Of a stretch of 64,000 bases of DNA, positions 12,226 through 64,000 are shown piece after piece. Position 1 is the stretch's first letter. Each line of letters starts with the position of its first letter. The DNA is from Loxodes magnus (taxonomy: Eukaryota > Ciliophora > Karyorelictea > Loxodida > Loxodidae). A program made the translations under genes and the position numbers. The stretch is from NCBI GenBank assembly GCA_946699065.1, contig CAMPDV010001292.1:1-64000 (forward strand), in the 5' to 3' direction. The notes beneath the pieces are model-generated. The model made no database searches. It had not been told where the DNA came from and saw nothing but the letters and a program-made list of their open reading frames with translations.

Positions 12226-12312
12226 CAATTTATTTATTTATAATACAATTTTTAATCTCCTTAACTCTAAAACTTTATCAGACAAGGTTCGTGAAAAAGG
12301 AACTAATATTAA

Positions 12313-23045: not shown

Positions 23046-25740
23046 AGGTCTTACAGGTACCTATCTGGACGTTCCATAGTCTCACCGTCTTATCATCACT
23101 TCTCGATACGATGAACTCTGAATCACTGGATATAGCCACAGATAATACGTAATTAGTGTGACCACTCATGGTCTTACAGGTACCTGTCTTGACGTTCCAT
23201 AGTCTCACCGTATTATCTCAACTTCCCGATACGATGAACTCTGAATCACTGGATATAGCCACAGCATATACATCACAAGTGTGACCACTCATGGTCTTAC
23301 AGGTACCTGTCTTGACGTCCCATAGTCTCACCGTATTATCTCTACTTCCCGATACGATGAACTCTGAATCACTGGATATAGCCACAGATCATACTGAATT
23401 TGTGTGACCACTCATGGTCTTACAGGTACCTGTCTTGACGTTCCATAGTCTCACCGTCTCATCTCAACTTCCCGATACGATGAACTCTGAATCACTGGAT
23501 ATAGCCACAGCATATACATAATCTGTGTGACAACTCATGGTCTTACAGTACCTGTCTTGATGTTCCATAGTCTCACCGTATTATCTCTACTTCCCGATAC
23601 GATGAACTCTGAATCACTGGATATAGCCACAGATAATACATAATGTGTCTGACCACTCATGGTCTTACAGGTACCTGTCTTGACGTCCCATAGTCTCACC
23701 GTCTCATCTCTACTTCCCGATACGATGAACTCTGAATCACTGGATATAGCCACAGATCATAAATAACTAGTGTGACCACTCATGGTCTTATAGGTACCTG
23801 TCTTGACGTCCCATAGTCTCACCGTATAATCTGCACTTCCCGATACGATGAACTCTGAATCACTGGATATAGCCACAGATAATACATAACTAGTGTGACC
23901 ACTCATGGTCTTACAGGTACCTGTCTTGACGTTCCATAGTCTCACCGTCTCATCTCTACTTCCCGATACGATGAACTCTGAATCACTGGATATAGCCACA
24001 GATCATACATCACAAGTGTGAGCACTCATGGTCTTATAGGTACCTGTCTTGACGTTCCATAGTCTCACCGTATTATCTCTACTTCCCGATACGATGAACT
24101 CTGAATCACTGGATATAGCCACAGATAATACAGAATCAGTGTGACCACTCATGGTCTTACAGGTACCTGTCTTGAAGTCCCATAGTCTCACAGTCTTATC
24201 TCTACTTCCCGATACGATGAACTCTGAATCACTGGATATAGCCACAGATAATACATGACTAGTGTGACCACTCATGGTCTTACAGGTACCTGTCTTGACG
24301 TCCCATAGTCTCACCGTCTTATCATGACTTCCCGATACGATGAACTCTGAATCACTGGATATAGCCACAGATCATAAATAACTAGTGTGACCACTCATGG
24401 TCTTACAGGTACCTGTCTTGACGTCCCATAGTCTCACCGTCTTATCATGACTTCCCGATACGATGAACTCTGAATCACTGGATATAGCCACAGATAATAC
24501 ATGACTAGTGTGACCACTCATGGTCTTACAGGTACCTGTCTTGACGTTCCATAGTCTCACCGTATTATCTCAACTTCCCGATACGATGAACTCTGAATCA
24601 CTGGATATAGCCACAGATCATACAGAATTTGTGTGACCACTCATGGTCTTACAGGTACCTGTCTTGACGTCCCATAGTCTCACCGTCTTATCATCACTTC
24701 CCGATACGATGAACTCTGAATCACTGGATATAGCCACAGATCTTAAAGAATTTGTGTGACCACTCATGGTCTTATAGGTACCTGTCTTGACGTTCCATAG
24801 TCTCACCGTATTATCTCTACTTCCCGATACGATGAACTCTGAATCACTGGATATAGCCACAGATCATAAATAACTAGTGTGACCACTCATGGTCTTACAG
24901 GTACCTGTCTTGACGTCCCATAGTCTCACCGTCTCATCTCTACTTCCCGATACGATGAACTCTGAATCACTGGATATAGCCACAGATCATAAATAACTAG
25001 TGTGACCACTCATGGTCTTACAGGTACCTGTCTTGACGTCCCATAGTCTCACTGTATTATCTCTACTTCCCGATACGATGAACTCTGAATCACTGGATAT
25101 AGCCACAGATCATACTGAATTTGTGTGACCACTCATGGTCTTACAGGTACCTGTCTTGACGTTCCATAGTCTCACCGTCTCATCTCAACTTCCCGATACG
25201 ATGAACTCTGAATCACTGGATATAGCCACAGCATATACATAATCTGTGTGACAACTCATGGTCTTACAGTACCTGTCTTGATGTTCCATAGTCTCACCGT
25301 ATTATCTCTACTTCCCGATACGATGAACTCTGAATCACTGGATATAGCCACAGATAATACATAATGTGTCTGACCACTCATGGTCTTACAGGTACCTGTC
25401 TTGACGTCCCATAGTCTCACCGTCTCATCTCTACTTCCCGATACGATGAACTCTGAATCACTGGATATAGCCACAGATAATACAGAATCAGTGTGACCAC
25501 TCATGGTCTTACAGGTACCTGTCTTGACGTCCCATAGTCTCACCGTATTATCTCAACTTCCCGATACGATGAACTCTGAATCACTGGATATAGCCACAGA
25601 TCATAAATAACTAGTGTGACCACTCATGGTCTTACAGGTACCTGTCTTGACGTCCCATAGTCTCACCGTCTCATCTCAACTTCCCGATACGATGAACTCT
25701 GAATCACTGGATATAGCCACAGATAATACAGAATCTGTGT

Positions 25741-28700
25741 GACCACTCATGGTCTTACAGGTACCTGTCTTGACGTCCCATAGTCTCACCGTCTCATCTC
25801 AACTTCCCGATACGATGAACTCTGAATCACTGGATATAGCCACAGATAATACCTAACTAGTGTGACCACTCATGGTCTTACAGGTACCTGTCTTGACGTC
25901 CCATAGTCTCACCGTCTTATCATGACTTCCCGATACGATGAACTCTGAATCACTGGATATAGCCACAGATAATACGTAATTAGTGTGACCACTCATGGTC
26001 TTACAGGTACCTGTCTTGACGTCCCATAGTCTCACCGTATTATCTCAACTTCCCGATACGATGAACTCTGAATCACTGGATATAGCCACAGATAATACAG
26101 AATCAGTGTGACCACTCATGGTCTTACAGGTACCTGTCTTGACGTCCCATAGTCTCACCGTCTCATCTCAACTTCCCGATACGATGAACTCTGAATCACT
26201 GGATATAGCCACAGATCTTACATAACTAGTGTGACCACTCATAGTCTTACAGGTACCTGTCTTGACGTCCCATAGTCTCACCGTATTATCTCAACTTCCC
26301 GATACGATGAACTCTGAATCACTGGATATAGCCACAGATCTTACATAACTAGTGTGACCACTCATGGTCTTACAGGTACCTGTCTTGACGTCCCATAGTC
26401 TCACCGTATAATCTGCACTTCCCGATACGATGAACTCTGAATCACTGGATATAGCCACAGATCATACAGAATTTGTGTGACCACTCATGGTCTTACAGGT
26501 ACCTGTCTTGACGTCCCATAGTCTCACCGTCTTATCATCACTTCCCGATACGATGAACTCTGAATCACTGGATATAGCCACAGATCTTACAGAATTTGTG
26601 TGACCACTCATGGTCTTATAGGTACCTGTCTTGACGTTCCATAGTCTCACCGTATTATCTCTACTTCCCGATACGATGAACTCTGAATCACTGGATATAG
26701 CCACAGATCATAAATAACTAGTGTGACCACTCATGGTCTTACAGGTACCTGTCTTGACGTCCCATAGTCTCACCGTCTTATCTCTACTTCCCGATACGAT
26801 GAACTCTGAATCACTGGATATAGCCACAGATAATACATGACTAGTGTGACCACTCATGGTCTTACAGGTACCTGTCTTGACGTTCCATAGTCTCACCGTA
26901 TTATCTCTACTTCCCGATACGATGAACTCTGAATCACTGGATATAGCCACAGATCATACAGAATTTGTGTGACCACTCATGGTCTTACAGGTACCTGTCT
27001 TGATGTTCCATAGTCTCACCGTATTATCTCTACTTCCCGATACGATGAACTCTGAATCACTGGATATAGCCACAGAAATTACAGAATCTGTGTGAGCACT
27101 CATGGTCTTACAGGTACCTGTCTTGACGTTCCATAGTCTCACCGTATTATCTCAACTTCCCGATACGATGAACTCTGAATCACTGGATATAGCCACAGAT
27201 CATACAGAATTTGTGTGACCACTCATGGTCTTACAGGTACCTGTCTTGACGTCCCATAGTCTCACCGTCTCATCTCAACTTCCCGATACGATGAACTCTG
27301 AATCACTGGATATAGCCACAGATCTTACATAACTAGTGTGACCACTCATGGTCTTACAGGTACCTGTCTTGACGTCCCATAGTCTCACCGTCTCATCTCA
27401 ACTTCCCGATACGATGAACTCTGAATCACTGGATATAGCCACAGATCTTACATAACTAGTGTGACCACTCATGGTCTTACAGGTACCTGTCTTGACGTTC
27501 CATAGTCTCACCGTATTATCTCAACTTCCCGATACGATGAACTCTGAATCACTGGATATAGCCACAGATCATACAGAATTTGTGTGACCACTCATGGTCT
27601 TACAGGTACCTGTCTTGACGTCCCATAGTCTCACCGTATTATCTCAACTTCCCGATACGATGAACTCTGAATCACTGGATATAGCCACAGATAATACATA
27701 ACTAGTGTGACCACTCATGGTCTTATAGGTACCTGTCTTGACGTTCCATAGTCTCACCGTATTATCTCTACTTCCCGATACGATGAACTCTGAATCACTG
27801 GATATAGCCACAGATCTTACAGAATCTGTGTGAGCACTCATGGTTTTATAGGTACCTGTCTTGAAGTCCCATAGTCTCACCGTCTCATCTCAACTTCCCG
27901 ATACGATGAACTCTGAATCACTGGATATAGCCACAGCATATACATCACAAGTGTGACCACTCATGGTCTTACAGGTACCTGTCTTGACGTCCCATAGTCT
28001 CACCGTCTCATCTCAACTTCCCGATACGATGAACTCTGAATCACTGGATATAGCCACAGATAATACAGAATCAGTGTGACCACTCATGGTCTTACAGGTA
28101 CCTGTCTTGACGTCCCATAGTCTCACCGTATAATCTGCACTTCCCGATACGATGAACTCTGAATCACTGGATATAGCCACAGATCTTACATAACTAGTGT
28201 GACCACTCATGGTCTTACAGGTACCTGTCTTGACGTTCCATAGTCTCACCGTATTATCTCAACTTCCCGATACGATGAACTCTGAATCACTGGATATAGC
28301 CACAGATAATACAGAATCAGTGTGACCACTCATGGTCTTATAGGTACCTGTCTTGACGTTCCATAGTCTCACCGTCTTATCATCACTTCCCGATACGATG
28401 AACTCTGAATCACTGGATATAGCCACAGATCTTACAGAATCTGTGTGAGCACTCATGGTTTTATAGGTACCTGTCTTGAAGTCCCATAGTCTCACCGTCT
28501 CATCTCTACTTCCCGATACGATGAACTCTGAATCACTGGATATAGCCACAGCATATACATCACAAGTGTGACCACTCATGGTCTTACAGGTACCTGTCTT
28601 GACGTCCCATAGTCTCACCGTCTCATCTCAACTTCCCGATACGATGAACTCTGAATCACTGGATATAGCCACAGATCTTACATAACTAGTGTGACCACTC

Positions 28701-31700
28701 ATGGTCTTACAGGTACCTGTCTTGACGTTCCATAGTCTCACCGTATTATCTCAACTTCCCGATACGATGAACTCTGAATCACTGGATATAGCCACAGATA
28801 ATACAGAATCAGTGTGACCACTCATGGTCTTACAGGTACCTGTCTTGACGTCCCATAGTCTCACCGTCTCATCTCAACTTCCCGATACGATGAACTCTGA
28901 ATCACTGGATATAGCCACAGATAATACCTAACTAGTGTGACCACTCATGGTCTTACAGGTACCTGTCTTGACGTCCCATAGTCTCACCGTCTTATCATGA
29001 CTTCCCGATACGATGAACTCTGAATCACTGGATATAGCCACAGATAATACGTAATTAGTGTGACCACTCATGGTCTTACAGGTACCTGTCTTGACGTCCC
29101 ATAGTCTCACCGTATTATCTCAACTTCCCGATACGATGAACTCTGAATCACTGGATATAGCCACAGATAATACAGAATCAGTGTGACCACTCATGGTCTT
29201 ACAGGTACCTGTCTTGACGTCCCATAGTCTCACCGTCTCATCTCAACTTCCCGATACGATGAACTCTGAATCACTGGATATAGCCACAGATCTTACATAA
29301 CTAGTGTGACCACTCATAGTCTTACAGGTACCTGTCTTGACGTCCCATAGTCTCACCGTATTATCTCAACTTCCCGATACGATGAACTCTGAATCACTGG
29401 ATATAGCCACAGATCTTACATAACTAGTGTGACCACTCATGGTCTTACAGGTACCTGTCTTGACGTCCCATAGTCTCACCGTATAATCTGCACTTCCCGA
29501 TACGATGAACTCTGAATCACTGGATATAGCCACAGATCATACAGAATTTGTGTGACCACTCATGGTCTTACAGGTACCTGTCTTGACGTCCCATAGTCTC
29601 ACCGTCTTATCATCACTTCCCGATACGATGAACTCTGAATCACTGGATATAGCCACAGATCTTACAGAATTTGTGTGACCACTCATGGTCTTATAGGTAC
29701 CTGTCTTGACGTTCCATAGTCTCACCGTATTATCTCTACTTCCCGATACGATGAACTCTGAATCACTGGATATAGCCACAGATCATAAATAACTAGTGTG
29801 ACCACTCATGGTCTTACAGGTACCTGTCTTGACGTCCCATAGTCTCACCGTCTTATCTCTACTTCCCGATACGATGAACTCTGAATCACTGGATATAGCC
29901 ACAGATAATACATGACTAGTGTGACCACTCATGGTCTTACAGGTACCTGTCTTGACGTTCCATAGTCTCACCGTATTATCTCTACTTCCCGATACGATGA
30001 ACTCTGAATCACTGGATATAGCCACAGATCATACAGAATTTGTGTGACCACTCATGGTCTTACAGGTACCTGTCTTGATGTTCCATAGTCTCACCGTATT
30101 ATCTCTACTTCCCGATACGATGAACTCTGAATCACTGGATATAGCCACAGATCTTACAGAATCTGTGTGAGCACTCATGGTCTTACAGGTACCTGTCTTG
30201 ACGTTCCATAGTCTCACCGTATTATCTCAACTTCCCGATACGATGAACTCTGAATCACTGGATATAGCCACAGATCATACAGAATTTGTGTGACCACTCA
30301 TGGTCTTACAGGTACCTGTCTTGACGTCCCATAGTCTCACCGTCTCATCTCAACTTCCCGATACGATGAACTCTGAATCACTGGATATAGCCACAGATCT
30401 TACATAACTAGTGTGACCACTCATGGTCTTACAGGTACCTGTCTTGACGTCCCATAGTCTCACCGTCTCATCTCAACTTCCCGATACGATGAACTCTGAA
30501 TCACTGGATATAGCCACAGATCTTACATAACTAGTGTGACCACTCATGGTCTTACAGGTACCTGTCTTGACGTTCCATAGTCTCACCGTATTATCTCAAC
30601 TTCCCGATACGATGAACTCTGAATCACTGGATATAGCCACAGATCATACAGAATTTGTGTGACCACTCATGGTCTTACAGGTACCTGTCTTGACGTCCCA
30701 TAGTCTCACCGTATTATCTCAACTTCCCGATACGATGAACTCTGAATCACTGGATATAGCCACAGATAATACATAACTAGTGTGACCACTCATGGTCTTA
30801 TAGGTACCTGTCTTGACGTTCCATAGTCTCACCGTATTATCTCTACTTCCCGATACGATGAACTCTGAATCACTGGATATAGCCACAGATCTTACAGAAT
30901 CTGTGTGAGCACTCATGGTTTTATAGGTACCTGTCTTGAAGTCCCATAGTCTCACCGTCTCATCTCAACTTCCCGATACGATGAACTCTGAATCACTGGA
31001 TATAGCCACAGCATATACATCACAAGTGTGACCACTCATGGTCTTACAGGTACCTGTCTTGACGTCCCATAGTCTCACCGTCTCATCTCAACTTCCCGAT
31101 ACGATGAACTCTGAATCACTGGATATAGCCACAGATAATACAGAATCAGTGTGACCACTCATGGTCTTACAGGTACCTGTCTTGACGTCCCATAGTCTCA
31201 CCGTATAATCTGCACTTCCCGATACGATGAACTCTGAATCACTGGATATAGCCACAGATCTTACATAACTAGTGTGACCACTCATGGTCTTACAGGTACC
31301 TGTCTTGACGTTCCATAGTCTCACCGTATTATCTCAACTTCCCGATACGATGAACTCTGAATCACTGGATATAGCCACAGATAATACAGAATCAGTGTGA
31401 CCACTCATGGTCTTATAGGTACCTGTCTTGACGTTCCATAGTCTCACCGTCTTATCATCACTTCCCGATACGATGAACTCTGAATCACTGGATATAGCCA
31501 CAGATCTTACAGAATCTGTGTGAGCACTCATGGTTTTATAGGTACCTGTCTTGAAGTCCCATAGTCTCACCGTCTCATCTCTACTTCCCGATACGATGAA
31601 CTCTGAATCACTGGATATAGCCACAGCATATACATCACAAGTGTGACCACTCATGGTCTTACAGGTACCTGTCTTGACGTCCCATAGTCTCACCGTCTCA

Positions 31701-31890
31701 TCTCAACTTCCCGATACGATGAACTCTGAATCACTGGATATAGCCACAGATCTTACATAACTAGTGTGACCACTCATGGTCTTACAGGTACCTGTCTTGA
31801 CGTTCCATAGTCTCACCGTATTATCTCAACTTCCCGATACGATGAACTCTGAATCACTGGATATAGCCACAGATAATACAGAATCAGTGT
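25741..31890 (-). repeat. Higher-order duplication, 3,075 bp (25 units), two copies
   Basis: The order of variant modules in about 25741-28815 repeats in 28816-31890 at a constant offset of 3,075 bp, exactly 25 units. Few differences are seen. One is at 27063 (AGAAATTAC), where the second copy at 30138 has AGATCTTAC. Further short repeats of 6 units (738 bp) follow at about 31088 and 31826. This indicates a recent segmental duplication, or an assembly duplication. Confidence 0.8.
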
Positions 31891-33597
31891 GACCACTCAT
31901 GGTCTTACAGGTACCTGTCTTGACGTCCCATAGTCTCACCGTATAATCTGCACTTCCCGATACGATGAACTCTGAATCACTGGATATAGCCACAGATCTT
32001 ACATAACTAGTGTGACCACTCATGGTCTTACAGGTACCTGTCTTGACGTTCCATAGTCTCACCGTATTATCTCAACTTCCCGATACGATGAACTCTGAAT
32101 CACTGGATATAGCCACAGATAATACAGAATCAGTGTGACCACTCATGGTCTTATAGGTACCTGTCTTGACGTTCCATAGTCTCACCGTCTTATCATCACT
32201 TCCCGATACGATGAACTCTGAATCACTGGATATAGCCACAGATCATACAGAATTTGTGTGACCACTCATGGTCTTACAGGTACCTGTCTTGACGTCCCAT
32301 AGTCTCACCGTCTCATCTCAACTTCCCGATACGATGAACTCTGAATCACTGGATATAGCCACAGATAATACAGAATCAGTGTGACCACTCATGGTCTTAC
32401 AGGTACCTGTCTTGACGTCCCATAGTCTCACCGTCTCATCTCAACTTCCCGATACGATGAACTCTGAATCACTGGATATAGCCACAGATCTTACATAACT
32501 AGTGTGACCACTCATGGTCTTACAGGTACCTGTCTTGACGTTCCATAGTCTCACCGTATTATCTCAACTTCCCGATACGATGAACTCTGAATCACTGGAT
32601 ATAGCCACAGATCATACAGAATTTGTGTGACCACTCATGGTCTTACAGGTACCTGTCTTGACGTCCCATAGTCTCACCGTATTATCTCAACTTCCCGATA
32701 CGATGAACTCTGAATCACTGGATATAGCCACAGATAATACATAACTAGTGTGACCACTCATGGTCTTACAGGTACCTGTCTTGACGTTCCATAGTCTCAC
32801 CGTCTCATCTCAACTTCCCGATACGATGAACTCTGAATCACTGGATATAGCCACAGCATATACATAATCTGTGTGACAACTCATGGTCTTACAGTACCTG
32901 TCTTGACGTCCCATAGTCTCACCGTATTATCTCAACTTCCCGATACGATGAACTCTGAATCACTGGATATAGCCACAGATCATACTGAATTTGTGTGACC
33001 ACTCATGGTCTTACAGGTACCTGTCTTGACGTTCCATAGTCTCACCGTCTCATCTCAACTTCCCGATACGATGAACTCTGAATCACTGGATATAGCCACA
33101 GCATATACATCACAAGTGTGACCACTCATGGTCTTACAGGTACCTGTCTTGACGTCCCATAGTCTCACCGTCTTATCATCACTTCCCGATACGATGAACT
33201 CTGAATCACTGGATATAGCCACAGATAATACAGAATCAGTGTGACCACTCATGGTCTTATAGGTACCTGTCTTGACGTTCCATAGTCTCACCGTATTATC
33301 TCTACTTCCCGATACGATGAACTCTGAATCACTGGATATAGCCACAGATAATACGTAATTAGTGTGACCACTCATGGTCTTATAGGTACCTGTCTTGACG
33401 TTCCATAGTCTCACCGTATTATCTCTACTTCCCGATACGATGAACTCTGAATCACTGGATATAGCCACAGATCTTACATAACTAGTGTGACCACTCATGG
33501 TCTTACAGGTACCTGTCTTGACGTCCCATAGTCTCACCGTCTCATCTCAACTTCCCGATACGATGAACTCTGAATCACTGGATATAGCCACAGATCA

Positions 33598-33717
<120 letters not shown>

Positions 33718-34089
33718 TCATACAGAATTTGTGTGACCACTCATGGTCTTATAGGTACCTGTCTTGACGTCCCATAGTCTCACCGTATTATCTCTACTTC
33801 CCGATACGATGAACTCTGAATCACTGGATATAGCCACAGATCTTACAGAATCTGTGTGAGCACTCATGGTTTTATAGGTACCTGTCTTGAAGTCCCATAG
33901 TCTCACCGTCTTATCTCTACTTCCCGATACGATGAACTCTGAATCACTGGATATAGCCACAGATCTTACATAACTAGTGTGACCACTCATGGTCTTACAG
34001 GTACCTGTCTTGACGTCCCATAGTCTCACCGTCTCATCTCAACTTCCCGATACGATGAACTCTGAATCACTGGATATAGCCACAGATCA

Positions 34090-34209
<120 letters not shown>

Positions 34210-35195
34210 TCATACAGAATTTGTGTGACCACTCATGGTCTTATAGGTACCTGTCTTGACGTCCCATAGTCTCACCGTCTCATCTCAACTTCCCGATACG
34301 ATGAACTCTGAATCACTGGATATAGCCACAGATCTTACATAACTAGTGTGACCACTCATGGTCTTACAGGTACCTGTCTTGACGTTCCATAGTCTCACCG
34401 TATTATCTCAACTTCCCGATACGATGAACTCTGAATCACTGGATATAGCCACAGATAATACAGAATCAGTGTGACCACTCATGGTCTTACAGGTACCTGT
34501 CTTGACGTCCCATAGTCTCACCGTATTATCTCAACTTCCCGATACGATGAACTCTGAATCACTGGATATAGCCACAGATAATACATAACTAGTGTGACCA
34601 CTCATGGTCTTACAGGTACCTGTCTTGACGTTCCATAGTCTCACCGTCTCATCTCAACTTCCCGATACGATGAACTCTGAATCACTGGATATAGCCACAG
34701 CATATACATAATCTGTGTGACAACTCATGGTCTTACAGTACCTGTCTTGATGTTCCATAGTCTCACCGTCTCATCTCTACTTCCCGATACGATGAACTCT
34801 GAATCACTGGATATAGCCACAGATAATACATAATGTGTCTGACCACTCATGGTCTTACAGGTACCTGTCTTGACGTCCCATAGTCTCACCGTATAATCTG
34901 CACTTCCCGATACGATGAACTCTGAATCACTGGATATAGCCACAGATAATACGTAATTAGTGTGACCACTCATGGTCTTATAGGTACCTGTCTTGACGTT
35001 CCATAGTCTCACCGTATTATCTCTACTTCCCGATACGATGAACTCTGAATCACTGGATATAGCCACAGATCTTACATAACTAGTGTGACCACTCATGGTC
35101 TTACAGGTACCTGTCTTGACGTCCCATAGTCTCACCGTCTCATCTCAACTTCCCGATACGATGAACTCTGAATCACTGGATATAGCCACAGATCA

Positions 35196-35315
<120 letters not shown>

Positions 35316-35687
35316 TCATACAGAATTTGTGTGACCACTCATGGTCTTATAGGTACCTGTCTTGACGTCCCATAGTCTCACCGTATTATCTCTACTTCCC
35401 GATACGATGAACTCTGAATCACTGGATATAGCCACAGATCTTACAGAATCTGTGTGAGCACTCATGGTTTTATAGGTACCTGTCTTGAAGTCCCATAGTC
35501 TCACCGTCTTATCTCTACTTCCCGATACGATGAACTCTGAATCACTGGATATAGCCACAGATCTTACATAACTAGTGTGACCACTCATGGTCTTACAGGT
35601 ACCTGTCTTGACGTCCCATAGTCTCACCGTCTCATCTCAACTTCCCGATACGATGAACTCTGAATCACTGGATATAGCCACAGATCA

Positions 35688-35807
<120 letters not shown>

Positions 35808-38267
35808 TCATACAGAATTTGTGTGACCACTCATGGTCTTATAGGTACCTGTCTTGACGTCCCATAGTCTCACCGTCTCATCTCAACTTCCCGATACGAT
35901 GAACTCTGAATCACTGGATATAGCCACAGCATATACATCACAAGTGTGACCACTCATGGTCTTACAGGTACCTGTCTTGACGTCCCATAGTCTCACCGTC
36001 TTATCATCACTTCCCGATACGATGAACTCTGAATCACTGGATATAGCCACAGATAATACAGAATCAGTGTGACCACTCATGGTCTTACAGGTACCTGTCT
36101 TGACGTCCCATAGTCTCACCGTATTATCTCAACTTCCCGATACGATGAACTCTGAATCACTGGATATAGCCACAGATAATACATAACTAGTGTGACCACT
36201 CATGGTCTTACAGGTACCTGTCTTGACGTTCCATAGTCTCACCGTCTCATCTCAACTTCCCGATACGATGAACTCTGAATCACTGGATATAGCCACAGCA
36301 TATACATAATCTGTGTGACAACTCATGGTCTTACAGTACCTGTCTTGATGTTCCATAGTCTCACCGTCTCATCTCTACTTCCCGATACGATGAACTCTGA
36401 ATCACTGGATATAGCCACAGATAATACATAATGTGTCTGACCACTCATGGTCTTACAGGTACCTGTCTTGACGTCCCATAGTCTCACCGTATAATCTGCA
36501 CTTCCCGATACGATGAACTCTGAATCACTGGATATAGCCAAAGATCATACAGAATTTGTGTGACCACTCATGGTCTTACAGGTACCTGTCTTGACGTCCC
36601 ATAGTCTCACCGTCTCATCTCAACTTCCCGATACGATGAACTCTGAATCACTGGATATAGCCACAGCATATACATAATCTGTGTGACAACTCATGGTCTT
36701 ACAGTACCTGTCTTGACGTTCCATAGTCTCACCGTATTATCTCTACTTCCCGATACGATGAACTCTGAATCACTGGATATAGCCACAGATCTTACAGAAT
36801 CTGTGTGAGCACTCATGGTTTTATAGGTACCTGTCTTGACGTTCCATAGTCTCACCGTCTTATCATCACTTCCCGATACGATGAACTCTGAATCACTGGA
36901 TATAGCCACAGATAATACAGAATCAGTGTGACCACTCATGGTCTTACAGGTACCTGTCTTGACGTCCCATAGTCTCACCGTCTTATCATCACTTCCCGAT
37001 ACGATGAACTCTGAATCACTGGATATAGCCACAGATCTTACATAACTAGTGTGACCACTCATGGTCTTACAGGTACCTGTCTTGACGTCCCATAGTCTCA
37101 CCGTATTATCTCAACTTCCCGATACGATGAACTCTGAATCACTGGATATAGCCACAGATCATACAGAATTTGTGTGACCACTCATGGTCTTACAGGTACC
37201 TGTCTTGACGTCCCATAGTCTCACCGTCTCATCTCAACTTCCCGATACGATGAACTCTGAATCACTGGATATAGCCACAGCATATACATAATCTGTGTGA
37301 CAACTCATGGTCTTACAGTACCTGTCTTGATGTTCCATAGTCTCACCGTATTATCTCTACTTCCCGATACGATGAACTCTGAATCACTGGATATAGCCAC
37401 AGATAATACATAATGTGTCTGACCACTCATGGTCTTACAGGTACCTGTCTTGACGTCCCATAGTCTCACCGTATAATCTGCACTTCCCGATACGATGAAC
37501 TCTGAATCACTGGATATAGCCACAGCATATACATCACAAGTGTGACCACTCATGGTCTTACAGGTACCTGTCTTGACGTTCCATAGTCTCACCGTCTCAT
37601 CTCTACTTCCCGATACGATGAACTCTGAATCACTGGATATAGCCACAGATAATACATAATGTGTCTGACCACTCATGGTCTTACAGGTACCTGTCTTGAC
37701 GTTCCATAGTCTCACCGTATTATCTCAACTTCCCGATACGATGAACTCTGAATCACTGGATATAGCCACAGATCATACAGAATTTGTGTGACCACTCATG
37801 GTCTTACAGGTACCTGTCTTGACGTCCCATAGTCTCACCGTCTCATCTCTACTTCCCGATACGATGAACTCTGAATCACTGGATATAGCCAAAGATCATA
37901 CAGAATTTGTGTGACCACTCATGGTCTTATAGGTACCTGTCTTGACGTTCCATAGTCTCACCGTATTATCTCTACTTCCCGATACGATGAACTCTGAATC
38001 ACTGGATATAGCCACAGATAATACAGAATTTGTGTGACCACTCATGGTCTTATAGGTACCTGTCTTGACGTTCCATAGTCTCACCGTCTCATCTCTACTT
38101 CCCGATACGATGAACTCTGAATCACTGGATATAGCCACAGATAATACATAATGTGTCTGACCACTCATGGTCTTACAGGTACCTGTCTTGACGTTCCATA
38201 GTCTCACCGTATTATCTCAACTTCCCGATACGATGAACTCTGAATCACTGGATATAGCCACAGATCA

Positions 38268-38387
<120 letters not shown>

Positions 38388-41300: not shown

Positions 41301-41709
41301 ATACGATGAACTCTGAATCACTGGATATAGCCACAGATCATACAGAATTTGTGTGACCACTCATGGTCTTATAGGTACCTGTCTTGACGTCCCATAGTCT
41401 CACCGTATTATCTCTACTTCCCGATACGATGAACTCTGAATCACTGGATATAGCCACAGATAATACAGAATCAGTGTGACCACTCATGGTCTTACAGGTA
41501 CCTGTCTTGACGTCCCATAGTCTCACCGTCTCATCTCAACTTCCCGATACGATGAACTCTGAATCACTGGATATAGCCACAGATCTTACATAACTAGTGT
41601 GACCACTCATGGTCTTACAGGTACCTGTCTTGACGTTCCATAGTCTCACCGTATTATCTCAACTTCCCGATACGATGAACTCTGAATCACTGGATATAGC
41701 CACAGATCA

Positions 41710-41829
<120 letters not shown>

Positions 41830-46500: not shown

Positions 46501-49500
46501 ATCATACAGAATTTGTGTGACCACTCATGGTCTTACAGGTACCTGTCTTGACGTCCCATAGTCTCACCGTCTTATCATCACTTCCCGATACGATGAACTC
46601 TGAATCACTGGATATAGCCACAGATCTTACAGAATTTGTGTGACCACTCATGGTCTTATAGGTACCTGTCTTGACGTTCCATAGTCTCACCGTATTATCT
46701 CTACTTCCCGATACGATGAACTCTGAATCACTGGATATAGCCACAGATCTTACAGAATCTGTGTGAGCACTCATGGTTTTATAGGTACCTGTCTTGAAGT
46801 CCCATAGTCTCACCGTCTCATCTCAACTTCCCGATACGATGAACTCTGAATCACTGGATATAGCCACAGCATATACATCACAAGTGTGACCACTCATGGT
46901 CTTACAGGTACCTGTCTTGACGTTCCATAGTCTCACCGTATTATCTCTACTTCCCGATACGATGAACTCTGAATCACTGGATATAGCCACAGATGATACA
47001 TAACTAGTGTGACCACTCATGGTCTTACAGGTACCTGTCTTGACGTCCCATAGTCTCACCGTATAATCTGCACTTCCCGATACGATGAACTCTGAATCAC
47101 TGGATATAGCCACAGCATATACATCACAAGTGTGACCACTCATGGTCTTACAGGTACCTGTCTTGACGTTCCATAGTCTCACCGTCTCATCTCTACTTCC
47201 CGATACGATGAACTCTGAATCACTGGATATAGCCACAGATCATACATCACAAGTGTGACCACTCATGGTCTTATAGGTACCTGTCTTGACGTTCCATAGT
47301 CTCACCGTATTATCTCTACTTCCCGATACGATGAACTCTGAATCACTGGATATAGCCACAGATAATACAGAATCTGTGTGACCACTCATGGTCTTATAGG
47401 TACCTGTCTTGACGTTCCATAGTCTCACCGTATTATCTCTACTTCCCGATACGATGAACTCTGAATCACTGGATATAGCCACAGATCTTACATAACTAGT
47501 GTGACCACTCATGGTCTTACAGGTACCTGTCTTGACGTCCCATAGTCTCACCGTATAATCATGACTTCCCGATACGATGAACTCTGAATCACTGGATATA
47601 GCCACAGATCATACAGAATTTGTGTGACCACTCATGGTCTTACAGGTACCTGTCTTGACGTCCCATAGTCTCACCGTCTTATCATCACTTCCCGATACGA
47701 TGAACTCTGAATCACTGGATATAGCCACAGATAATACAGAATCAGTGTGACCACTCATGGTCTTACAGGTACCTGTCTTGACGTCCCATAGTCTCACCGT
47801 CTTATCATCACTTCCCGATACGATGAACTCTGAATCACTGGATATAGCCACAGATAATACAGAATCAGTGTGACCACTCATGGTCTTACAGGTACCTGTC
47901 TTGACGTCCCATAGTCTCACCGTATTATCTATACTTCCCGATACGATGAACTCTGAATCACTGGATATAGCCACAGATAATACATAACTAGTGTGACCAC
48001 TCATGGTCTTACAGGTACCTGTCTTGACGTCCCATAGTCTCACCGTCTTATCATCACTTCCCGATACGATGAACTCTGAATCACTGGATATAGCCACAGC
48101 ATATACATCACAAGTGTGACCACTCATGGTCTTACAGGTACCTGTCTTGACGTCCCATAGTCTCACCGTCTCATCTCAACTTCCCGATACGATGAACTCT
48201 GAATCACTGGATATAGCCACAGATAATACAGAATGTGTCTGACCACTCATGGTCTTACAGGTACCTGTCTTGACGTTCCATAGTCTCACCGTATAATCTG
48301 CACTTCCCGATACGATGAACTCTGAATCACTGGATATAGCCACAGCATATACATCACAAGTGTGACCACTCATGGTCTTATAGGTACCTGTCTTGACGTT
48401 CCATAGTCTCACCGTATTATCTCTACTTCCCGATACGATGAACTCTGAATCACTGGATATAGCCACAGATAATACAGAATCTGTGTGACCACTCATGGTC
48501 TTATAGGTACCTGTCTTGACGTTCCATAGTCTCACCGTATTATCTCTACTTCCCGATACGATGAACTCTGAATCACTGGATATAGCCACAGATCTTACAG
48601 AATCTGTGTGAGCACTCATGGTTTTATAGGTACCTGTCTTGAAGTCCCATAGTCTCACCGTCTCATCTCAACTTCCCGATACGATGAACTCTGAATCACT
48701 GGATATAGCCACAGCATATACATCACAAGTGTGACCACTCATGGTCTTACAGGTACCTGTCTTGACGTCCCATAGTCTCACCGTCTCATCTCAACTTCCC
48801 GATACGATGAACTCTGAATCACTGGATATAGCCACAGATAATACAGAATCAGTGTGACCACTCATGGTCTTACAGGTACCTGTCTTGACGTTCCATAGTC
48901 TCACCGTATTATCTCAACTTCCCGATACGATGAACTCTGAATCACTGGATATAGCCACAGATAATACGTAATTAGTGTGACCACTCATGGTCTTACAGGT
49001 ACCTGTCTTGACGTCCCATAGTCTCACCGTCTCATCTCTACTTCCCGATACGATGAACTCTGAATCACTGGATATAGCCAAAGATCATACAGAATTTGTG
49101 TGACCACTCATGGTCTTACAGGTACCTGTCTTGACGTCCCATAGTCTCACCGTCTCATCTCTACTTCCCGATACGATGAACTCTGAATCACTGGATATAG
49201 CCACAGCATATACATAATCTGTGTGACAACTCATGGTCTTACAGTACCTGTCTTGATGTTCCATAGTCTCACCGTATTATCTCTACTTCCCGATACGATG
49301 AACTCTGAATCACTGGATATAGCCACAGATAATACATAATGTGTCTGACCACTCATGGTCTTACAGGTACCTGTCTTGACGTCCCATAGTCTCACCGTAT
49401 AATCTGCACTTCCCGATACGATGAACTCTGAATCACTGGATATAGCCACAGCATATACATCACAAGTGTGACCACTCATGGTCTTACAGGTACCTGTCTT

Positions 49501-52500
49501 GACGTCCCATAGTCTCACCGTCTCATCTCAACTTCCCGATACGATGAACTCTGAATCACTGGATATAGCCACAGATCTTACATAACTAGTGTGACCACTC
49601 ATGGTCTTACAGGTACCTGTCTTGACGTTCCATAGTCTCACCGTATTATCTCAACTTCCCGATACGATGAACTCTGAATCACTGGATATAGCCACAGATC
49701 ATACAGAATTTGTGTGACCACTCATGGTCTTACAGGTACCTGTCTTGACGTCCCATAGTCTCACCGTATAATCTGCACTTCCCGATACGATGAACTCTGA
49801 ATCACTGGATATAGCCAAAGATCATACAGAATTTGTGTGACCACTCATGGTCTTACAGGTACCTGTCTTGACGTCCCATAGTCTCACCGTATTATCTCAA
49901 CTTCCCGATACGATGAACTCTGAATCACTGGATATAGCCACAGATCTTACATAACTAGTGTGACCACTCATGGTCTTACAGGTACCTGTCTTGACGTTCC
50001 ATAGTCTCACCGTCTCATCTCAACTTCCCGATACGATGAACTCTGAATCACTGGATATAGCCACAGATAATACAGAATTTGTGTGACCACTCATGGTCTT
50101 ACAGGTACCTGTCTTGACGTCCCATAGTCTCACCGTCTTATCATCACTTCCCGATACGATGAACTCTGAATCACTGGATATAGCCACAGATCTTACAGAA
50201 TTTGTGTGACCACTCATGGTCTTACAGGTACCTGTCTTGACGTCCCATAGTCTCACCGTCTCATCTCTACTTCCCGATACGATGAACTCTGAATCACTGG
50301 ATATAGCCACAGATCTTACAGAATTTGTGTGACCACTCATGGTCTTATAGGTACCTGTCTTGACGTTCCATAGTCTCACCGTATTATCTCTACTTCCCGA
50401 TACGATGAACTCTGAATCACTGGATATAGCCACAGATCTTACAGAATCTGTGTGAGCACTCATGGTTTTATAGGTACCTGTCTTGAAGTCCCATAGTCTC
50501 ACCGTCTCATCTCAACTTCCCGATACGATGAACTCTGAATCACTGGATATAGCCACAGCATATACATCACAAGTGTGACCACTCATGGTCTTACAGGTAC
50601 CTGTCTTGACGTCCCATAGTCTCACCGTCTTATCATCACTTCCCGATACGATGAACTCTGAATCACTGGATATAGCCACAGATAATACAGAATCAGTGTG
50701 ACCACTCATGGTCTTACAGGTACCTGTCTTGACGTCCCATAGTCTCACCGTATTATCTCAACTTCCCGATACGATGAACTCTGAATCACTGGATATAGCC
50801 ACAGATAATACATCACAAGTGTGACCACTCATGGTTTTATAGGTACCTGTCTTGAAGTCCCATAGTCTCACCGTCTCATCTCAACTTCCCGATACGATGA
50901 ACTCTGAATCACTGGATATAGCCAAAGATCATACAGAATTTGTGTGACCACTCATGGTCTTATAGGTACCTGTCTTGACGTTCCATAGTCTCACCGTATT
51001 ATCTCTACTTCCCGATACGATGAACTCTGAATCACTGGATATAGCCACAGATAATACATAATGTGTCTGACCACTCATGGTCTTACAGGTACCTGTCTTG
51101 ACGTCCCATAGTCTCACCGTATAATCTGCACTTCCCGATACGATGAACTCTGAATCACTGGATATAGCCACAGCATATACATCACAAGTGTGACCACTCA
51201 TGGTCTTATAGGTACCTGTCTTGACGTTCCATAGTCTCACCGTATTATCTCTACTTCCCGATACGATGAACTCTGAATCACTGGATATAGCCACAGATCT
51301 TACATAACTAGTGTGACCACTCATGGTCTTACAGGTACCTGTCTTGACGTTCCATAGTCTCACCGTATTATCTCAACTTCCCGATACGATGAACTCTGAA
51401 TCACTGGATATAGCCACAGATCATACAGAATTTGTGTGACCACTCATGGTCTTACAGGTACCTGTCTTGACGTCCCATAGTCTCACCGTCTTATCATCAC
51501 TTCCCGATACGATGAACTCTGAATCACTGGATATAGCCACAGATCTTACAGAATTTGTGTGACCACTCATGGTCTTATAGGTACCTGTCTTGACGTCCCA
51601 TAGTCTCACCGTATTATCTCTACTTCCCGATACGATGAACTCTGAATCACTGGATATAGCCACAGATGATACATAACTAGTGTGACCACTCATGGTCTTA
51701 CAGGTACCTGTCTTGACGTTCCATAGTCTCACCGTCTCATCTCAACTTCCCGATACGATGAACTCTGAATCACTGGATATAGCCACAGCATATACATAAT
51801 CTGTGTGACAACTCATGGTCTTACAGTACCTGTCTTGATGTTCCATAGTCTCACCGTATTATCTCTACTTCCCGATACGATGAACTCTGAATCACTGGAT
51901 ATAGCCACAGATGATACATAACTAGTGTGACCACTCATGGTCTTACAGGTACCTGTCTTGACGTCCCATAGTCTCACCGTATAATCTGCACTTCCCGATA
52001 CGATGAACTCTGAATCACTGGATATAGCCACAGCATATACATCACAAGTGTGACCACTCATGGTCTTACAGGTACCTGTCTTGACGTTCCATAGTCTCAC
52101 CGTCTCATCTCTACTTCCCGATACGATCAACTCTGAATCACTGGATATAGCCACAGATCATACATCACAAGTGTGACCACTCATGGTCTTATAGGTACCT
52201 GTCTTGACGTTCCATAGTCTCACCGTATTATCTCTACTTCCCGATACGATGAACTCTGAATCACTGGATATAGCCACAGATAATACAGAATCTGTGTGAC
52301 CACTCATGGTCTTATAGGTACCTGTCTTGACGTTCCATAGTCTCACCGTATTATCTCTACTTCCCGATACGATGAACTCTGAATCACTGGATATAGCCAC
52401 AGATCTTACATAACTAGTGTGACCACTCATGGTCTTATAGGTACCTGTCTTGACGTTCCATAGTCTCACCGTATTATCTCAACTTCCCGATACGATGAAC

Positions 52501-53440
52501 TCTGAATCACTGGATATAGCCACAGATCATACAGAATTTGTGTGACCACTCATGGTCTTACAGGTACCTGTCTTGACGTCCCATAGTCTCACCGTCTTAT
52601 CATCACTTCCCGATACGATGAACTCTGAATCACTGGATATAGCCACAGATAATACAGAATCAGTGTGACCACTCATGGTCTTACAGGTACCTGTCTTGAC
52701 GTCCCATAGTCTCACCGTCTTATCATCACTTCCCGATACGATGAACTCTGAATCACTGGATATAGCCACAGATAATACAGAATCAGTGTGACCACTCATG
52801 GTCTTACAGGTACCTGTCTTGACGTCCCATAGTCTCACCGTATTATCTATACTTCCCGATACGATGAACTCTGAATCACTGGATATAGCCACAGATAATA
52901 CATAACTAGTGTGACCACTCATGGTCTTACAGGTACCTGTCTTGACGTCCCATAGTCTCACCGTCTTATCATCACTTCCCGATACGATGAACTCTGAATC
53001 ACTGGATATAGCCACAGATCTTACAGAATTTGTGTGACCACTCATGGTCTTATAGGTACCTGTCTTGACGTCCCATAGTCTCACCGTATTATCTCTACTT
53101 CCCGATACGATGAACTCTGAATCACTGGATATAGCCACAGATCTTACAGAATTTGTGTGACCACTCATGGTCTTATAGGTACCTGTCTTGACGTTCCATA
53201 GTCTCACCGTATTATCTCTACTTCCCGATACGATGAACTCTGAATCACTGGATATAGCCACAGATCATATACATCACAAGTGTGACCACTCATGGTCTTA
53301 TAGGTACCTGTCTTGACGTTCCATAGTCTCACCGTATTATCTCTACTTCCCGATACGATGAACTCTGAATCACTGGATATAGCCACAGATCTTACATAAC
53401 TAGTGTGACCACTCATGGTCTTACAGGTACCTGTCTTGAC
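43600..53440 (-). repeat. Higher-order duplication, 4,919 bp (40 units minus one base), two copies
   Basis: Variant order from about 43600 to 48520 recurs at an offset of 4,919 bp up to about 53440. Each period includes one 122-bp frameshift unit (44331 and 49240), which explains the missing base. Rare variants such as S-I-D-N-T (ATA codon, near 47930 and 52849) recur at the same offset. The second copy has later changes, including the 2-nt insertion near 53265. Confidence 0.75.
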
Positions 53441-53919
53441 GTTCAATAGTCTCACCGTATTATCTCAACTTCCCGATACGATGAACTCTGAATCACTGGA
53501 TATAGCCACAGATCATACAGAATTTGTGTGACCACTCATGGTCTTACAGGTACCTGTCTTGACGTCCCATAGTCTCACCGTCTTATCATCACTTCCCGAT
53601 ACGATGAACTCTGAATCACTGGATATAGCCACAGATAATACAGAATTTGTGTGACCACTCATGGTCTTATAGGTACCTGTCTTGACGTCCCATAGTCTCA
53701 CCGTATTATCTCTACTTCCCGATACGATGAACTCTGAATCACTGGATATAGCCACAGATGATACATAACTAGTGTGACCACTCATGGTCTTACAGGTACC
53801 TGTCTTGACGTTCCATAGTCTCACCGTCTCATCTCAACTTCCCGATACGATGAACTCTGAATCACTGGATATAGCCACAGCATATACATAATCTGTGTGA
53901 CAACTCATGGTCTTACAGT

Positions 53920-56900
53920 ACCTGTCTTGATGTTCCATAGTCTCACCGTATTATCTCTACTTCCCGATACGATGAACTCTGAATCACTGGATATAGCCAC
54001 AGATAATACATAATGTGTCTGACCACTCATGGTCTTACAGGTACCTGTCTTGACGTCCCATAGTCTCACCGTATAATCTGCACTTCCCGATACGATGAAC
54101 TCTGAATCACTGGATATAGCCACAGCATATACATCACAAGTGTGACCACTCATGGTCTTACAGGTACCTGTCTTGACGTTCCATAGTCTCACCGTCTCAT
54201 CTCTACTTCCCGATACGATGAACTCTGAATCACTGGATATAGCCACAGATCATACATCACAAGTGTGACCACTCATGGTCTTATAGGTACCTGTCTTGAC
54301 GTTCCATAGTCTCACCGTATTATCTCTACTTCCCGATACGATGAACTCTGAATCACTGGATATAGCCACAGATAATACAGAATCTGTGTGACCACTCATG
54401 GTCTTATAGGTACCTGTCTTGACGTTCCATAGTCTCACCGTATTATCTCAACTTCCCGATACGATGAACTCTGAATCACTGGATATAGCCACAGATAATA
54501 CAGAATCTGTGTGACCACTCATGGTCTTACAGGTACCTGTCTTGACGTCCCATAGTCTCACCGTCTTATCATCACTTCCCGATACGATGAACTCTGAATC
54601 ACTGGATATAGCCACAGATCTTACAGAATTTGTGTGACCACTCATGGTCTTATAGGTACCTGTCTTGACGTTCCATAGTCTCACCGTATTATCTCTACTT
54701 CCCGATACGATGAACTCTGAATCACTGGATATAGCCACAGATCTTACAGAATCTGTGTGAGCACTCATGGTTTTATAGGTACCTGTCTTGAAGTCCCATA
54801 GTCTCACCGTCTCATCTCAACTTCCCGATACGATGAACTCTGAATCACTGGATATAGCCACAGCATATACATCACAAGTGTGACCACTCATGGTCTTATA
54901 GGTACCTGTCTTGACGTTCCATAGTCTCACCGTATTATCTCTACTTCCCGATACGATGAACTCTGAATCACTGGATATAGCCACAGATCTTACAGAATCT
55001 GTGTGAGCACTCATGGTTTTATAGGTACCTGTCTTGAAGTCCCATAGTCTCACCGTCTCATCTCAACTTCCCGATACGATGAACTCTGAATCACTGGATA
55101 TAGCCACAGCATATACATCACAAGTGTGACCACTCATGGTCTTACAGGTACCTGTCTTGACGTTCCATAGTCTCACCGTATTATCTCTACTTCCCGATAC
55201 GATGAACTCTGAATCACTGGATATAGCCACAGATCTTACAGAATCTGTGTGAGCACTCATGGTCTTACAGGTACCTGTCTTGACGTTCCATAGTCTCACC
55301 GTATTATCTCAACTTCCCGATACGATGAACTCTGAATCACTGGATATAGCCACAGATAATACATAACTAGTGTGACCACTCATGGTCTTATAGGTACCTG
55401 TCTTGACGTTCCATAGTCTCACCGTATTATCTCTACTTCCCGATACGATGAACTCTGAATCACTGGATATAGCCACAGATCTTACAGAATCTGTGTGAGC
55501 ACTCATGGTTTTATAGGTACCTGTCTTGAAGTCCCATAGTCTCACCGTCTCATCTCAACTTCCCGATACGATGAACTCTGAATCACTGGATATAGCCACA
55601 GCATATACATCACAAGTGTGACCACTCATGGTCTTACAGGTACCTGTCTTGACGTTCCATAGTCTCACCGTATTATCTCTACTTCCCGATACGATGAACT
55701 CTGAATCACTGGATATAGCCACAGATCTTACAGAATCTGTGTGAGCACTCATGGTCTTACAGGTACCTGTCTTGACGTCCCATAGTCTCACCGTATTATC
55801 TATACTTCCCGATACGATGAACTCTGAATCACTGGATATAGCCACAGATAATACATAACTAGTGTGACCACTCATGGTCTTACAGGTACCTGTCTTGACG
55901 TCCCATAGTCTCACCGTCTTATCATCACTTCCCGATACGATGAACTCTGAATCACTGGATATAGCCACAGATAATACATAACTAGTGTGACCACTCATGG
56001 TCTTACAGGTACCTGTCTTGACGTCCCATAGTCTCACCGTATTATCATGACTTCCCGATACGATGAACTCTGAATCACTGGATATAGCCACAGATCATAC
56101 ATGACTAGTGTGACCACTCATGGTCTTACAGGTACCTGTCTTGACGTTCCATAGTCTCACCGTATTATCTCAACTTCCCGATACGATGAACTCTGAATCA
56201 CTGGATATAGCCACAGATCATACTGAATTTGTGTGACCACTCATGGTCTTATAGGTACCTGTCTTGACGTTCCATAGTCTCACCGTATTATCTCTACTTC
56301 CCGATACGATGAACTCTGAATCACTGGATATAGCCACAGATGATACATAACTAGTGTGACCACTCATGGTTTTATAGGTACCTGTCTTGACGTTCCATAG
56401 TCTCACCGTATTATCTCTACTTCCCGATACGATGAACTCTGAATCACTGGATATAGCCACAGATCTTACATAACTAGTGTGACCACTCATGGTCTTACAG
56501 GTACCTGTCTTGACGTTCCATAGTCTCACCGTATTATCTCAACTTCCCGATACGATGAACTCTGAATCACTGGATATAGCCACAGATCATACAGAATTTG
56601 TGTGACCACTCATGGTCTTACAGGTACCTGTCTTGACGTCCCATAGTCTCACCGTCTCATCTCTACTTCCCGATACGATGAACTCTGAATCACTGGATAT
56701 AGCCAAAGATCATACAGAATTTGTGTGACCACTCATGGTCTTATAGGTACCTGTCTTGACGTTCCATAGTCTCACCGTATTATCTCTACTTCCCGATACG
56801 ATGAACTCTGAATCACTGGATATAGCCACAGATAATACATGACTAGTGTGACCACTCATGGTCTTACAGGTACCTGTCTTGACGTCCCATAGTCTCACCG

Positions 56901-62900: not shown

Positions 62901-64000
62901 CTGTCTTGACGTTCCATAGTCTCACCGTCTTATCTCCACTTCCCGATACGATGAACTCTGAATCACTGGATATAGCCACAGATCATACAGAATTTGTGTG
63001 ACCACTCATGGTCTTACAGGTACCTGTCTTGACGTTCCATAGTCTCACCGTATTATCTCAACTTCCCGATACGATGAACTCTGAATCACTGGATATAGCC
63101 ACAGATCTTACAGAATTTGTGTGACCACTCATGGTCTTATAGGTACCTGTCTTGACGTTCCATAGTCTCACCGTATTATCTCTACTTCCCGATACGATGA
63201 ACTCTGAATCACTGGATATAGCCACAGATGATACATAACTAGTGTGACCACTCATGGTTTTATAGGTACCTGTCTTGAAGTCCCATAGTCTCACCGTCTC
63301 ATCTCAACTTCCCGATACGATGAACTCTGAATCACTGGATATAGCCAAAGATCTTACATAACTAGTGTGACCACTCATGGTCTTACAGGTACCTGTCTTG
63401 ACGTTCCATAGTCTCACCGTATTATCTCAACTTCCCGATACGATGAACTCTGAATCACTGGATATAGCCACAGCATATACATCACAAGTGTGACCACTCA
63501 TGGTCTTACAGGTACCTGTCTTGACGTCCCATAGTCTCACCGTCTCATCTCAACTTCCCGATACGATGAACTCTGAATCACTGGATATAGCCAAAGATCA
63601 TACAGAATTTGTGTGACCACTCATGGTCTTACAGGTACCTGTCTTGACGTCCCATAGTCTCACCGTCTCATCTCAACTTCCCGATACGATGAACTCTGAA
63701 TCACTGGATATAGCCACAGATCATAAATAACTAGTGTGACCACTCATGGTCTTACAGGTACCTGTCTTGACGTTCCATAGTCTCACCGTATTATCTCTAC
63801 TTCCCGATACGATGAACTCTGAATCACTGGATATAGCCACAGATAATACATGACTAGTGTGACCACTCATGGTCTTACAGGTACCTGTCTTGACGTCCCA
63901 TAGTCTCACCGTCTTATCATGACTTCCCGATACGATGAACTCTGAATCACTGGATATAGCCACAGATAATACATAACTAGTGTGACCACTCATGGTCTTA
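53920..64000 (-). CDS. In-frame WD40 array segment, partial (possible giant propeller protein)
   Basis: From the right edge down to the frameshifted unit at about 53918 all ~82 modules stay in one frame (TGA=Trp), which would encode about 3,360 residues of WD40 blades. The true start lies beyond the window, so any N-terminal domain is unseen. At seven blades per propeller this would be about a dozen consecutive propellers. Being stop-free is not evidence here, because the code leaves few or no dedicated stops; the evidence is that the module phase and the W, D and GH residues are preserved. It may be expressed, or simply a part of the array not yet reached by the frameshifted variant. Confidence 0.45.
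57960..64000 (-). repeat. Higher-order duplication, 3,321 bp (27 units)
   Basis: Module order from about 57960 to 61280 recurs at an offset of 3,321 bp until the window ends, so the second copy is incomplete. A marker spelling, TATAATCTCT (58131 and 61452), sits at exactly this offset. An additional internal 1,230-bp (10-unit) duplication is nested in each copy (for example 59170 to 60400 and 62491 to 63721). No frameshift unit is present here. Confidence 0.75.

Follow-up and report, generated by a model that had tools for sequence, protein, structure and literature searches.

Tandem amplification of a coding unit gives rise to gene-derived satellite DNA and to megasatellites, and a RING, a coiled coil and a C-terminal recognition domain are joined in COP1 and TRAF7, which are RING-coiled-coil-WD40 E3 ligases, and in the TRIM proteins. 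In the fungus Podospora anserina, the HNWD/NWD genes (het-d, het-e) are described as carrying near-identical WD40 blades in concerted evolution within and between genes (PMC1805685, PMC12222747), which can be traded between genes to yield new recognition specificities, with strong positive selection at four codons (7, 9, 25 and 27) arranged in pairs that flank conserved sites (PMC1805685). Here we analyze a 64,000-nucleotide stretch, hereafter the window, at the start of contig CAMPDV010001292.1 (C1292) from the karyorelict ciliate Loxodes magnus, whose macronuclear assembly is reported to comprise 706 Mbp, to use NCBI table 27, in which TGA means Trp or stop, and to be rich in tandem repeats and long interspersed nuclear elements (LINEs) (PMC11441545). 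From position 23,047 onwards the window is a tandem array of WD40 blades, and we think it reasonably likely that this array is a single block within a satellite spread across the genome, which was born from coding sequence, evolves in concert with a hypervariable, receptor-like gene family and shares variants with it.

Like the HNWD/NWD blades, those of Loxodes are near-identical and evolve in concert within and between genes, and the exchange of repeats between Podospora family members (PMC1805685, PMC12222747) compares here with variants shared between genes and arrays. Unlike HNWD genes, the Loxodes genes carry a RING-like N-terminus and pentapeptide repeats; their blade has 41 codons rather than 42, and the blade is present in more than 330,000 copies, compared with ~70 blades in the Podospora family. 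Pfam scans of the family gene in the window returned no HET domain and no NACHT domain (in one scan, among the best 25 of 42 families listed), and the Loxodes family is therefore described as working like HNWD rather than as a member of it.

The array and its parts, in window coordinates, are as follows.

23047..64000, minus strand: WD40-blade satellite array of 123-bp units with 333 anchors, continuing to the contig end

54037..64000, minus strand: array part ahead of the first change of frame, with 81 units sharing a single frame, within a 122-unit in-frame run of the contig

23545..54036, minus strand: array part with frame changes, comprising 14 units of 122 bp and one 125-bp spacing (53,298-53,422), 15 changes in all

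23034..23052, minus strand: array 3' edge, a 19-mer with 15 genome occurrences on 14 contigs

An earlier note on this DNA had described a 123-bp unit, encoding one WD40 blade and repeated about 333 times, that ran beyond the window, and this was confirmed. Tandem Repeats Finder reported a single array filling positions 23,047-64,000 (333.1 copies, 93% matches), and an anchor scan of the window found 333 anchors with 332 spacings (317 of 123 bp, 14 of 122 bp and 1 of 125 bp). The array is larger still on the whole contig, where it extends as far as the contig end (122,205) and covers 99 kb with 806 anchors, their 805 spacings comprising 786 of 123 bp, 16 of 122 bp and one each of 125, 131 and 152 bp. 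Read in one frame of the minus strand, each unit gives one blade of 41 codons, and an in-frame stretch of 820 amino acids scored 728 bits against Pfam WD40 (PF00400; cut-off, 27), while the same stretch shifted by one base gave no WD40 match at E 0.001. In the 317 full units, His 6 (311 units), Ser 24 (317), Asp 28 (317) and Trp 34 (316) are kept almost throughout, and these may correspond to the D-H-S/T-W tetrad of WD40 blades. The units had also been called near-identical, which holds for a 39-bp core (the same in 331 of 332 units) but not for five hypervariable codons. Nor does the array keep to a single frame: 15 of 332 window units have a frame change, every one of them -1 modulo 3. The full units contain 227 in-frame TGA codons, at codons 11 and 27, which would be stops in the standard code but are Trp in the code used here. 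Unit counts exclude the last unit, which is cut; unit 87, misparsed after a 2-bp insertion, is included in counts over the 317 full units and in the five-codon and pN/pS figures given below, and is excluded from the Gini, half-combination, singleton and lag figures.

The assembly searched has 705,730,643 bases in 7,843 contigs. In it, exact matches number 333,603 for the 39-bp core and 377,806 for a 36-bp unit junction, and the reversed pattern gave 0 in either case. At 123 bp each, the units total 41-46 Mb, or 5.8-6.6% of the assembly, and they form long head-to-tail arrays at high copy number and at many loci, as satellite DNA does. All 6 further edge loci that were read show the same layout as the window, with the array upstream and a window-type spacer downstream (94.6-99.4% identity), and each array beside a near-identical spacer has its own set of hypervariable variants. 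The recurrence of the same edge on other contigs is at odds with the idea that the assembler expanded a short repeat, as are the 205 distinct sequences among the 785 full units of the contig, the longest exact repeats, which reach no more than 3,342 bp, and the PacBio circular consensus reads from which the assembly was built (PMC11441545). The L. magnus authors do suspect misassembly of low-complexity repeats (PMC11441545), and the exact length of any single array is less certain for that reason, but we consider an assembly artifact very improbable as an account of the array itself.

On 11 of the 14 contigs that carry the array edge, a gene of one family lies downstream of it on the same strand. 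Searches located five of these with blades, including the one in the window, and one cut by the contig end, and another five turned up where the edge-to-gene spacing had predicted them. The predicted place on the other three contigs held no gene on C346 and a blade run instead on C865, and C276 ends before reaching it. Where both edge and gene start were located (five contigs), they are 11.4-12.5 kb apart; the distance is ~18 kb on C1346, whose gene is cut by the contig end. The run on C865 (L066, C865:71400-73200) has 15 units with variants of its own (TWYVSAV types) and is possibly a second array. The window gene, which the earlier note had overlooked, is a member of this source family with the following parts.

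8334..10577, minus strand: source-family gene, a 747-codon open frame with TAA and TAG read as Gln and TGA as Trp, and a putative TGA stop at 8,334-8,336

10379..10577, minus strand: RING-like N-terminus, C-x2-C-x15-C-x-C-x2-C-x2-C-x12-C-x2-H (Pfam zf-RING_2, 20.7 bits, E 5e-4)

9303..9470, minus strand: pentapeptide repeats (PF13599, 43.3 bits; PF00805, 42.9 bits; both above cut-off)

8693..9233, minus strand: near-identical blade cassette, with all bases equal to alleles of full array units except one, at 9,082 (codon 29)

8334..8680, minus strand: diverged blades 6-7, with TGA at the conserved WD40 Trp of both

Between the RING-like part and the pentapeptide repeats lies a region that, read by eye, is Gln-rich and coiled-coil-like, and seven WD40 blades were counted by eye in the gene, whose region scored 240 bits against PF00400. 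Identity drops sharply on either side of the cassette at 8,693-9,233. Eight Cys/His positions, spaced as in the RING cross-brace, are conserved across the genes on C1292, C2 and C3. With a source family at hand, one member of it in the window itself and the unit present in more than 330,000 copies in the assembly, the earlier suggestion of a satellite born from a coding exon is strongly supported.

The same genes bear on another suggestion of the earlier note, that of a giant gene in which the array would be the sensor region of a protein with thousands of residues. In-frame runs are long, reaching up to ~270 units at the C1292 contig end, and nearly every unit of that contig keeps the blade consensus. 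However, such a gene calls for a single frame and proper gene ends, and the array contains the 15 frame-changing units of the window, its 3' edge passes straight into AT-rich, non-blade spacer at all 7 loci that were read, and the three family genes that were fully read (C1292, C2 and C3) have only 747, 793 and 828 codons, each in a single frame and with the same domain order. At the sole 5' edge read, moreover, an array on contig C4 begins mid-unit after AT-rich DNA, and the 1.3 kb read upstream of it contains no N-terminal part of a family gene. For this stretch, the giant gene thus fares badly and we regard it as improbable, although part of an array may be expressed, because in-frame runs are long and the C1292 contig stops before the 5' end of its array is reached. 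The C4 array (L033-L043, C4:2224414-2235086) is more diverged, and in 59 of its 71 full units codon 29 is TAG, read as Gln.

Variation between units is extensive, with 114 distinct sequences among the 317 full window units, and codons 8, 9, 11, 27 and 29 carry 67% of the diversity in 332 window units. The ratio of nonsynonymous to synonymous differences per site (pN/pS) in the array is 2.63, in units without the 1-bp deletion described below. The sequence rule given in PMC3419727 assigns codons 9, 11 and 27 to the top-face hotspots R1-2, R1 and D-1. A hand alignment on the conserved Val and Asp places the four Podospora codons 7, 9, 25 and 27 (PMC1805685) at unit codons 9, 11, 27 and 29, so that the two systems vary at the same four codons; the chance of four given codons falling within the top five of 41 is 4.9e-5. 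The concentration of variation is no proof by itself and was dropped as evidence of selection, because an 88-bp satellite in the same window concentrates its diversity alike (Gini 0.85, compared with 0.86 for the WD40 array). The argument rests instead on the place of variation, since the two repeats differ in its place and kind and in their load of rare alleles. Singleton alleles number 4 in 331 WD40 units (0.10 per kb), whereas the 88-bp satellite has 1.46 per kb across 63 units, and WD40 units taken in blocks of 63 have a mean of 0.43 per kb (0 to 1.03). This scarcity fits the homogenization or very recent amplification that the earlier note had read from the sequence. Two mutational accounts of the hypervariable codons were also dropped: CpG decay at codons 11 and 27, by which CGA would have become TGA but where 0 CGA occur in 317 units and the alternatives to TGA are AGA, TTA, TAT, TCA, GAT, GCA, CAT, GGA and rarer codons, and directed mutation of adenine only, given variation at all four bases and all codon positions.

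The source genes combine a diverged N-terminus that looks constrained with homogenized blades. Of 388 first-look candidates for the RING part, 40 were scored, the window copy among them, and every one of these has at least 85% nucleotide identity. Between C1292 and C2, the ratio of nonsynonymous to synonymous substitution rates (dN/dS) is 0.20 for the RING, 0.36 for the middle region, 0.11 for the pentapeptide repeats and 0.44 for blades 6-7, and the N-terminus is under purifying selection in this one unsaturated pair. In the same pair, dS falls from 0.85 in the N-terminus and 0.55 in blades 6-7 to 0.157 in the near-identical blades, whose own dN/dS is 0.85. Both pairs with C3 are saturated in the N-terminus, with a proportion of synonymous differences (pS) of 0.75, and have a dS in the near-identical blades of 0.26 (with C1292) and 0.21. 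This collapse of dS in the blades, set against a diverged and constrained N-terminus, is the mark of concerted evolution, in which the middle blades of the family genes take part; concerted evolution between loci also fits the identical core in gene and array.

The hypervariable codons stand out in the genes as well. Among 40 blades from 11 gene loci, the same five codons account for 44% of nonsynonymous but 10% of synonymous differences (the frame filter removed 2 of 42 blades, and a few misframed ones remain among the 40). Two gene loci, L010 and L011, have an identity of 99.6% across the 560 nucleotides upstream and of 98% in codons 30-38, yet of only 54% in codons 8-11 and 27-29, in a comparison that includes the frame-shifted blade 4 of L011. 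For other loci, the upstream values of L015 (~0.33) reflect an indel offset, and the codon 30-38 values of L013 and L014 are lowered by frame shifts. The frame is intact through the near-identical blades in L010, L016, L017, L024 and L030. Within the frame-shifted fourth near-identical blade of L011 (C449), an internal stretch matches 18 of the 19 bases of the array 3' edge, as if the end of an array had been copied into it. L011 and L012 (C81) lie on contigs with nearly identical starts, and their gene blades are identical at the hypervariable codons; the pair probably reflects either two haplotypes or an assembly end present in duplicate.

We compared gene blades with arrays on the ten contigs that carry both, using ~32 units (4 kb) per array and setting each gene's own array against the others. 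Gene variants were present in the own array at 0.470, compared with 0.236 after shuffling, a value reached in 10 of 100,000 permutations; a version based on distinct variants gave 8 of 100,000, and the own array ranked first by presence, ties included, for 6 of the 10 genes. The first five pairs, which had prompted the test, gave 1 and 5 of 120. Preferential local sharing between genes and arrays is thus moderately supported and is compatible with either direction of transfer.

Several observations weigh against the reading of a satellite in concert with a receptor-like gene family. The RING match is under the Pfam cut-off (27.3) in the window, C2 and C3 genes, and a RING dN/dS below 1 could be computed for one pair only, C1292 and C2. 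Loci L011-L015 are frame-shifted, and these five copies look like pseudogenes. A frequency version of the sharing test was weaker (193 of 100,000), the five pairs added later gave by themselves only 9 and 13 of 120, and two of the ten genes (C1076 and C3841) have zero variants in common with their own arrays. The C4 array looks decayed, with Cys in place of the conserved Trp 34 in 25 of 71 full units.

Within the array, blocks reappear at lags such as 10, 17, 25, 27 and 40 units, the longest exact repeat is 2,727 bp in the window part (3,342 bp in the 99-kb array), and the two unit halves are recombined: one half has 28 types, the other 39, and 119 pairings of them occur. Adjacent units are identical no more often than in shuffles (5 observed, 4.1 expected). 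The 14 window units of 122 bp have the same 1-bp deletion, always GGTACTGT in place of GGTACCTGT, with ATC at codon 36 in 12 of 14 and the next unit beginning alike in 14 of 14, which identifies them as copies of one event. Genome-wide, the deletion precedes the common unit start 112 times, compared with the 377,806 intact junctions, and the 14 window copies lie outside these 112 because they precede another unit start. Reading by hand found no short introns that would restore the frame at the 122-bp units.

Several features suit a purely selfish satellite, in which unequal crossing-over would have amplified gene blades that then spread as neutral DNA, while the arrays do nothing for the genes; the hypervariable codons would then be a memory of founder blades diversified in genes, and local sharing would mean local origin rather than donation. 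Frame-changing units are tolerated, and one deletion has been copied into 14 window units; a structural Trp has been replaced in the 25 C4 units; no seven-unit register appears, identity at lags that are multiples of 7 being no higher than at others; and the 88-bp satellite concentrates variation comparably. Against it stand the collapse of dS in gene blades relative to the rest of the same genes, by which exchange among copies has reached the genes, and hypervariable repertoires that differ between arrays beside 94.6-99.4% identical spacers, although neither of these demonstrates a function of the arrays. We put this account somewhat short of an even chance.

Under the reading of a satellite in concert with its source genes, blades would be amplified and shuffled by unequal crossing-over and gene conversion, and the pool of array units could act as a de facto reservoir from which genes draw new combinations of top-face residues. 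The propeller may recognize its targets through the top, ligand-facing residues of the middle blades, and the family proteins could be recognition ligases of an E3-like kind that mark bound targets with ubiquitin. The earlier note had proposed a donor bank, for which the sharing with own arrays is circumstantial evidence, as are L010 and L011, alike upstream yet 46% different in codons 8-11 and 27-29; a donor function of the arrays is plausible but unproven. A bolder form of the idea, which we advance only tentatively and consider doubtful, is that the arrays, some of which lie ~11-12 kb upstream of receptor genes, store hundreds of thousands of recognition blades as a functional archive, with the ligand face of those genes rewritten by conversion from the adjacent array, as anticipatory recognition on a genome scale in a single-celled eukaryote. 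Loxodes is reported to build new somatic nuclei from germline copies even when it divides asexually (PMC11441545), and such rewriting could therefore be somatic. The likelihoods that we attach to the concerted satellite, the selfish satellite and the archive do not sum to one, because these readings share an origin and differ on donation.

Other features of the window bear on the genetic code. A LINE-like element (window 12,250-15,050) has matches to endonuclease (PF14529) and reverse transcriptase (PF00078), split over two frames, and reads through with TAA and TAG as Gln and TGA as Trp. A bacterial reading (table 11, then table 4) was dropped once this element and the family gene read well in the altered code, and in the first 23 kb there were no table 11 open reading frames of 150 amino acids beyond the gene's blades. 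The WD40 score alone failed to identify the residue encoded by TGA (Trp, 728; Tyr, 736; Arg, 732; Glu, 722 bits), and its reading as Trp follows from TGA at the conserved Trp of gene blades 6 and 7 together with table 27. A minus-strand segment at 21401-22498 contains GTLAYADDIV in the altered code and resembles the remnant of a further reverse transcriptase; Pfam gave no match for it at E 0.01. The 88-bp satellite opens the contig (window 1-5,639) with 64 copies, 26 of whose 63 spacings differ from 88 bp. A 32-mer of it occurs 905 times in the genome, with C1041, C1292, C3004 and C3502 among the matches listed (the first 100), and on C1041 this satellite has a family gene (133,208) on one side and the contig end (142,929) on the other.

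Known proteins and repeats resemble parts of this system. The Loxodes genes follow COP1, TRAF7 and the TRIM proteins in the order of a RING-like part, a coiled-coil-like region and a C-terminal recognition domain, but differ from them in the pentapeptide repeats before the propeller, in the near-identical hypervariable blades and in a RING that falls below the Pfam cut-off. Unlike known gene-derived satellites and megasatellites, the Loxodes satellite makes up ~6% of a 706-Mb assembly and has variants in common with an apparently intact gene family. By sequence, the best solved relative is Nostoc punctiforme 2YMU (14 repeats, 423 bits), one of the Highly-Repetitive WD40 proteins, which likewise show high internal identity and diversity at hotspots (PMC5587647); those are described as single proteins of ordinary length, with no satellite mentioned in the part of that paper available to us, whereas the Loxodes blade is a satellite. 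A scan of bacterial genomes found 9 relatives (best-segment identity, 27-47%), of which 6 were cyanobacterial, and a scan of a viral collection gave 1 pattern match and no relatives. Literature searches found no paper for WD40 with karyorelict and no blade satellite of comparable scale, and the term WD40 is absent from the main text of the L. magnus paper (PMC11441545). The HNWD-type principle is already known (PMC1805685, PMC12222747, PMC4986451); here it appears on another chassis and in another eukaryotic group, at a scale for which these searches found no precedent.

Together, these results place the same solution, with the same variable residues, in a ciliate on a different N-terminal chassis, where the traded blade makes up ~6% of the assembly. 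They also suggest that coding repeats, and a gene family with them, can be overlooked when tandem repeats are set aside as non-coding ahead of gene prediction. Loxodes offers a case in which satellite DNA and the diversity of receptors are open to study as a single process, and with it a concrete test of whether a satellite can serve its source genes.

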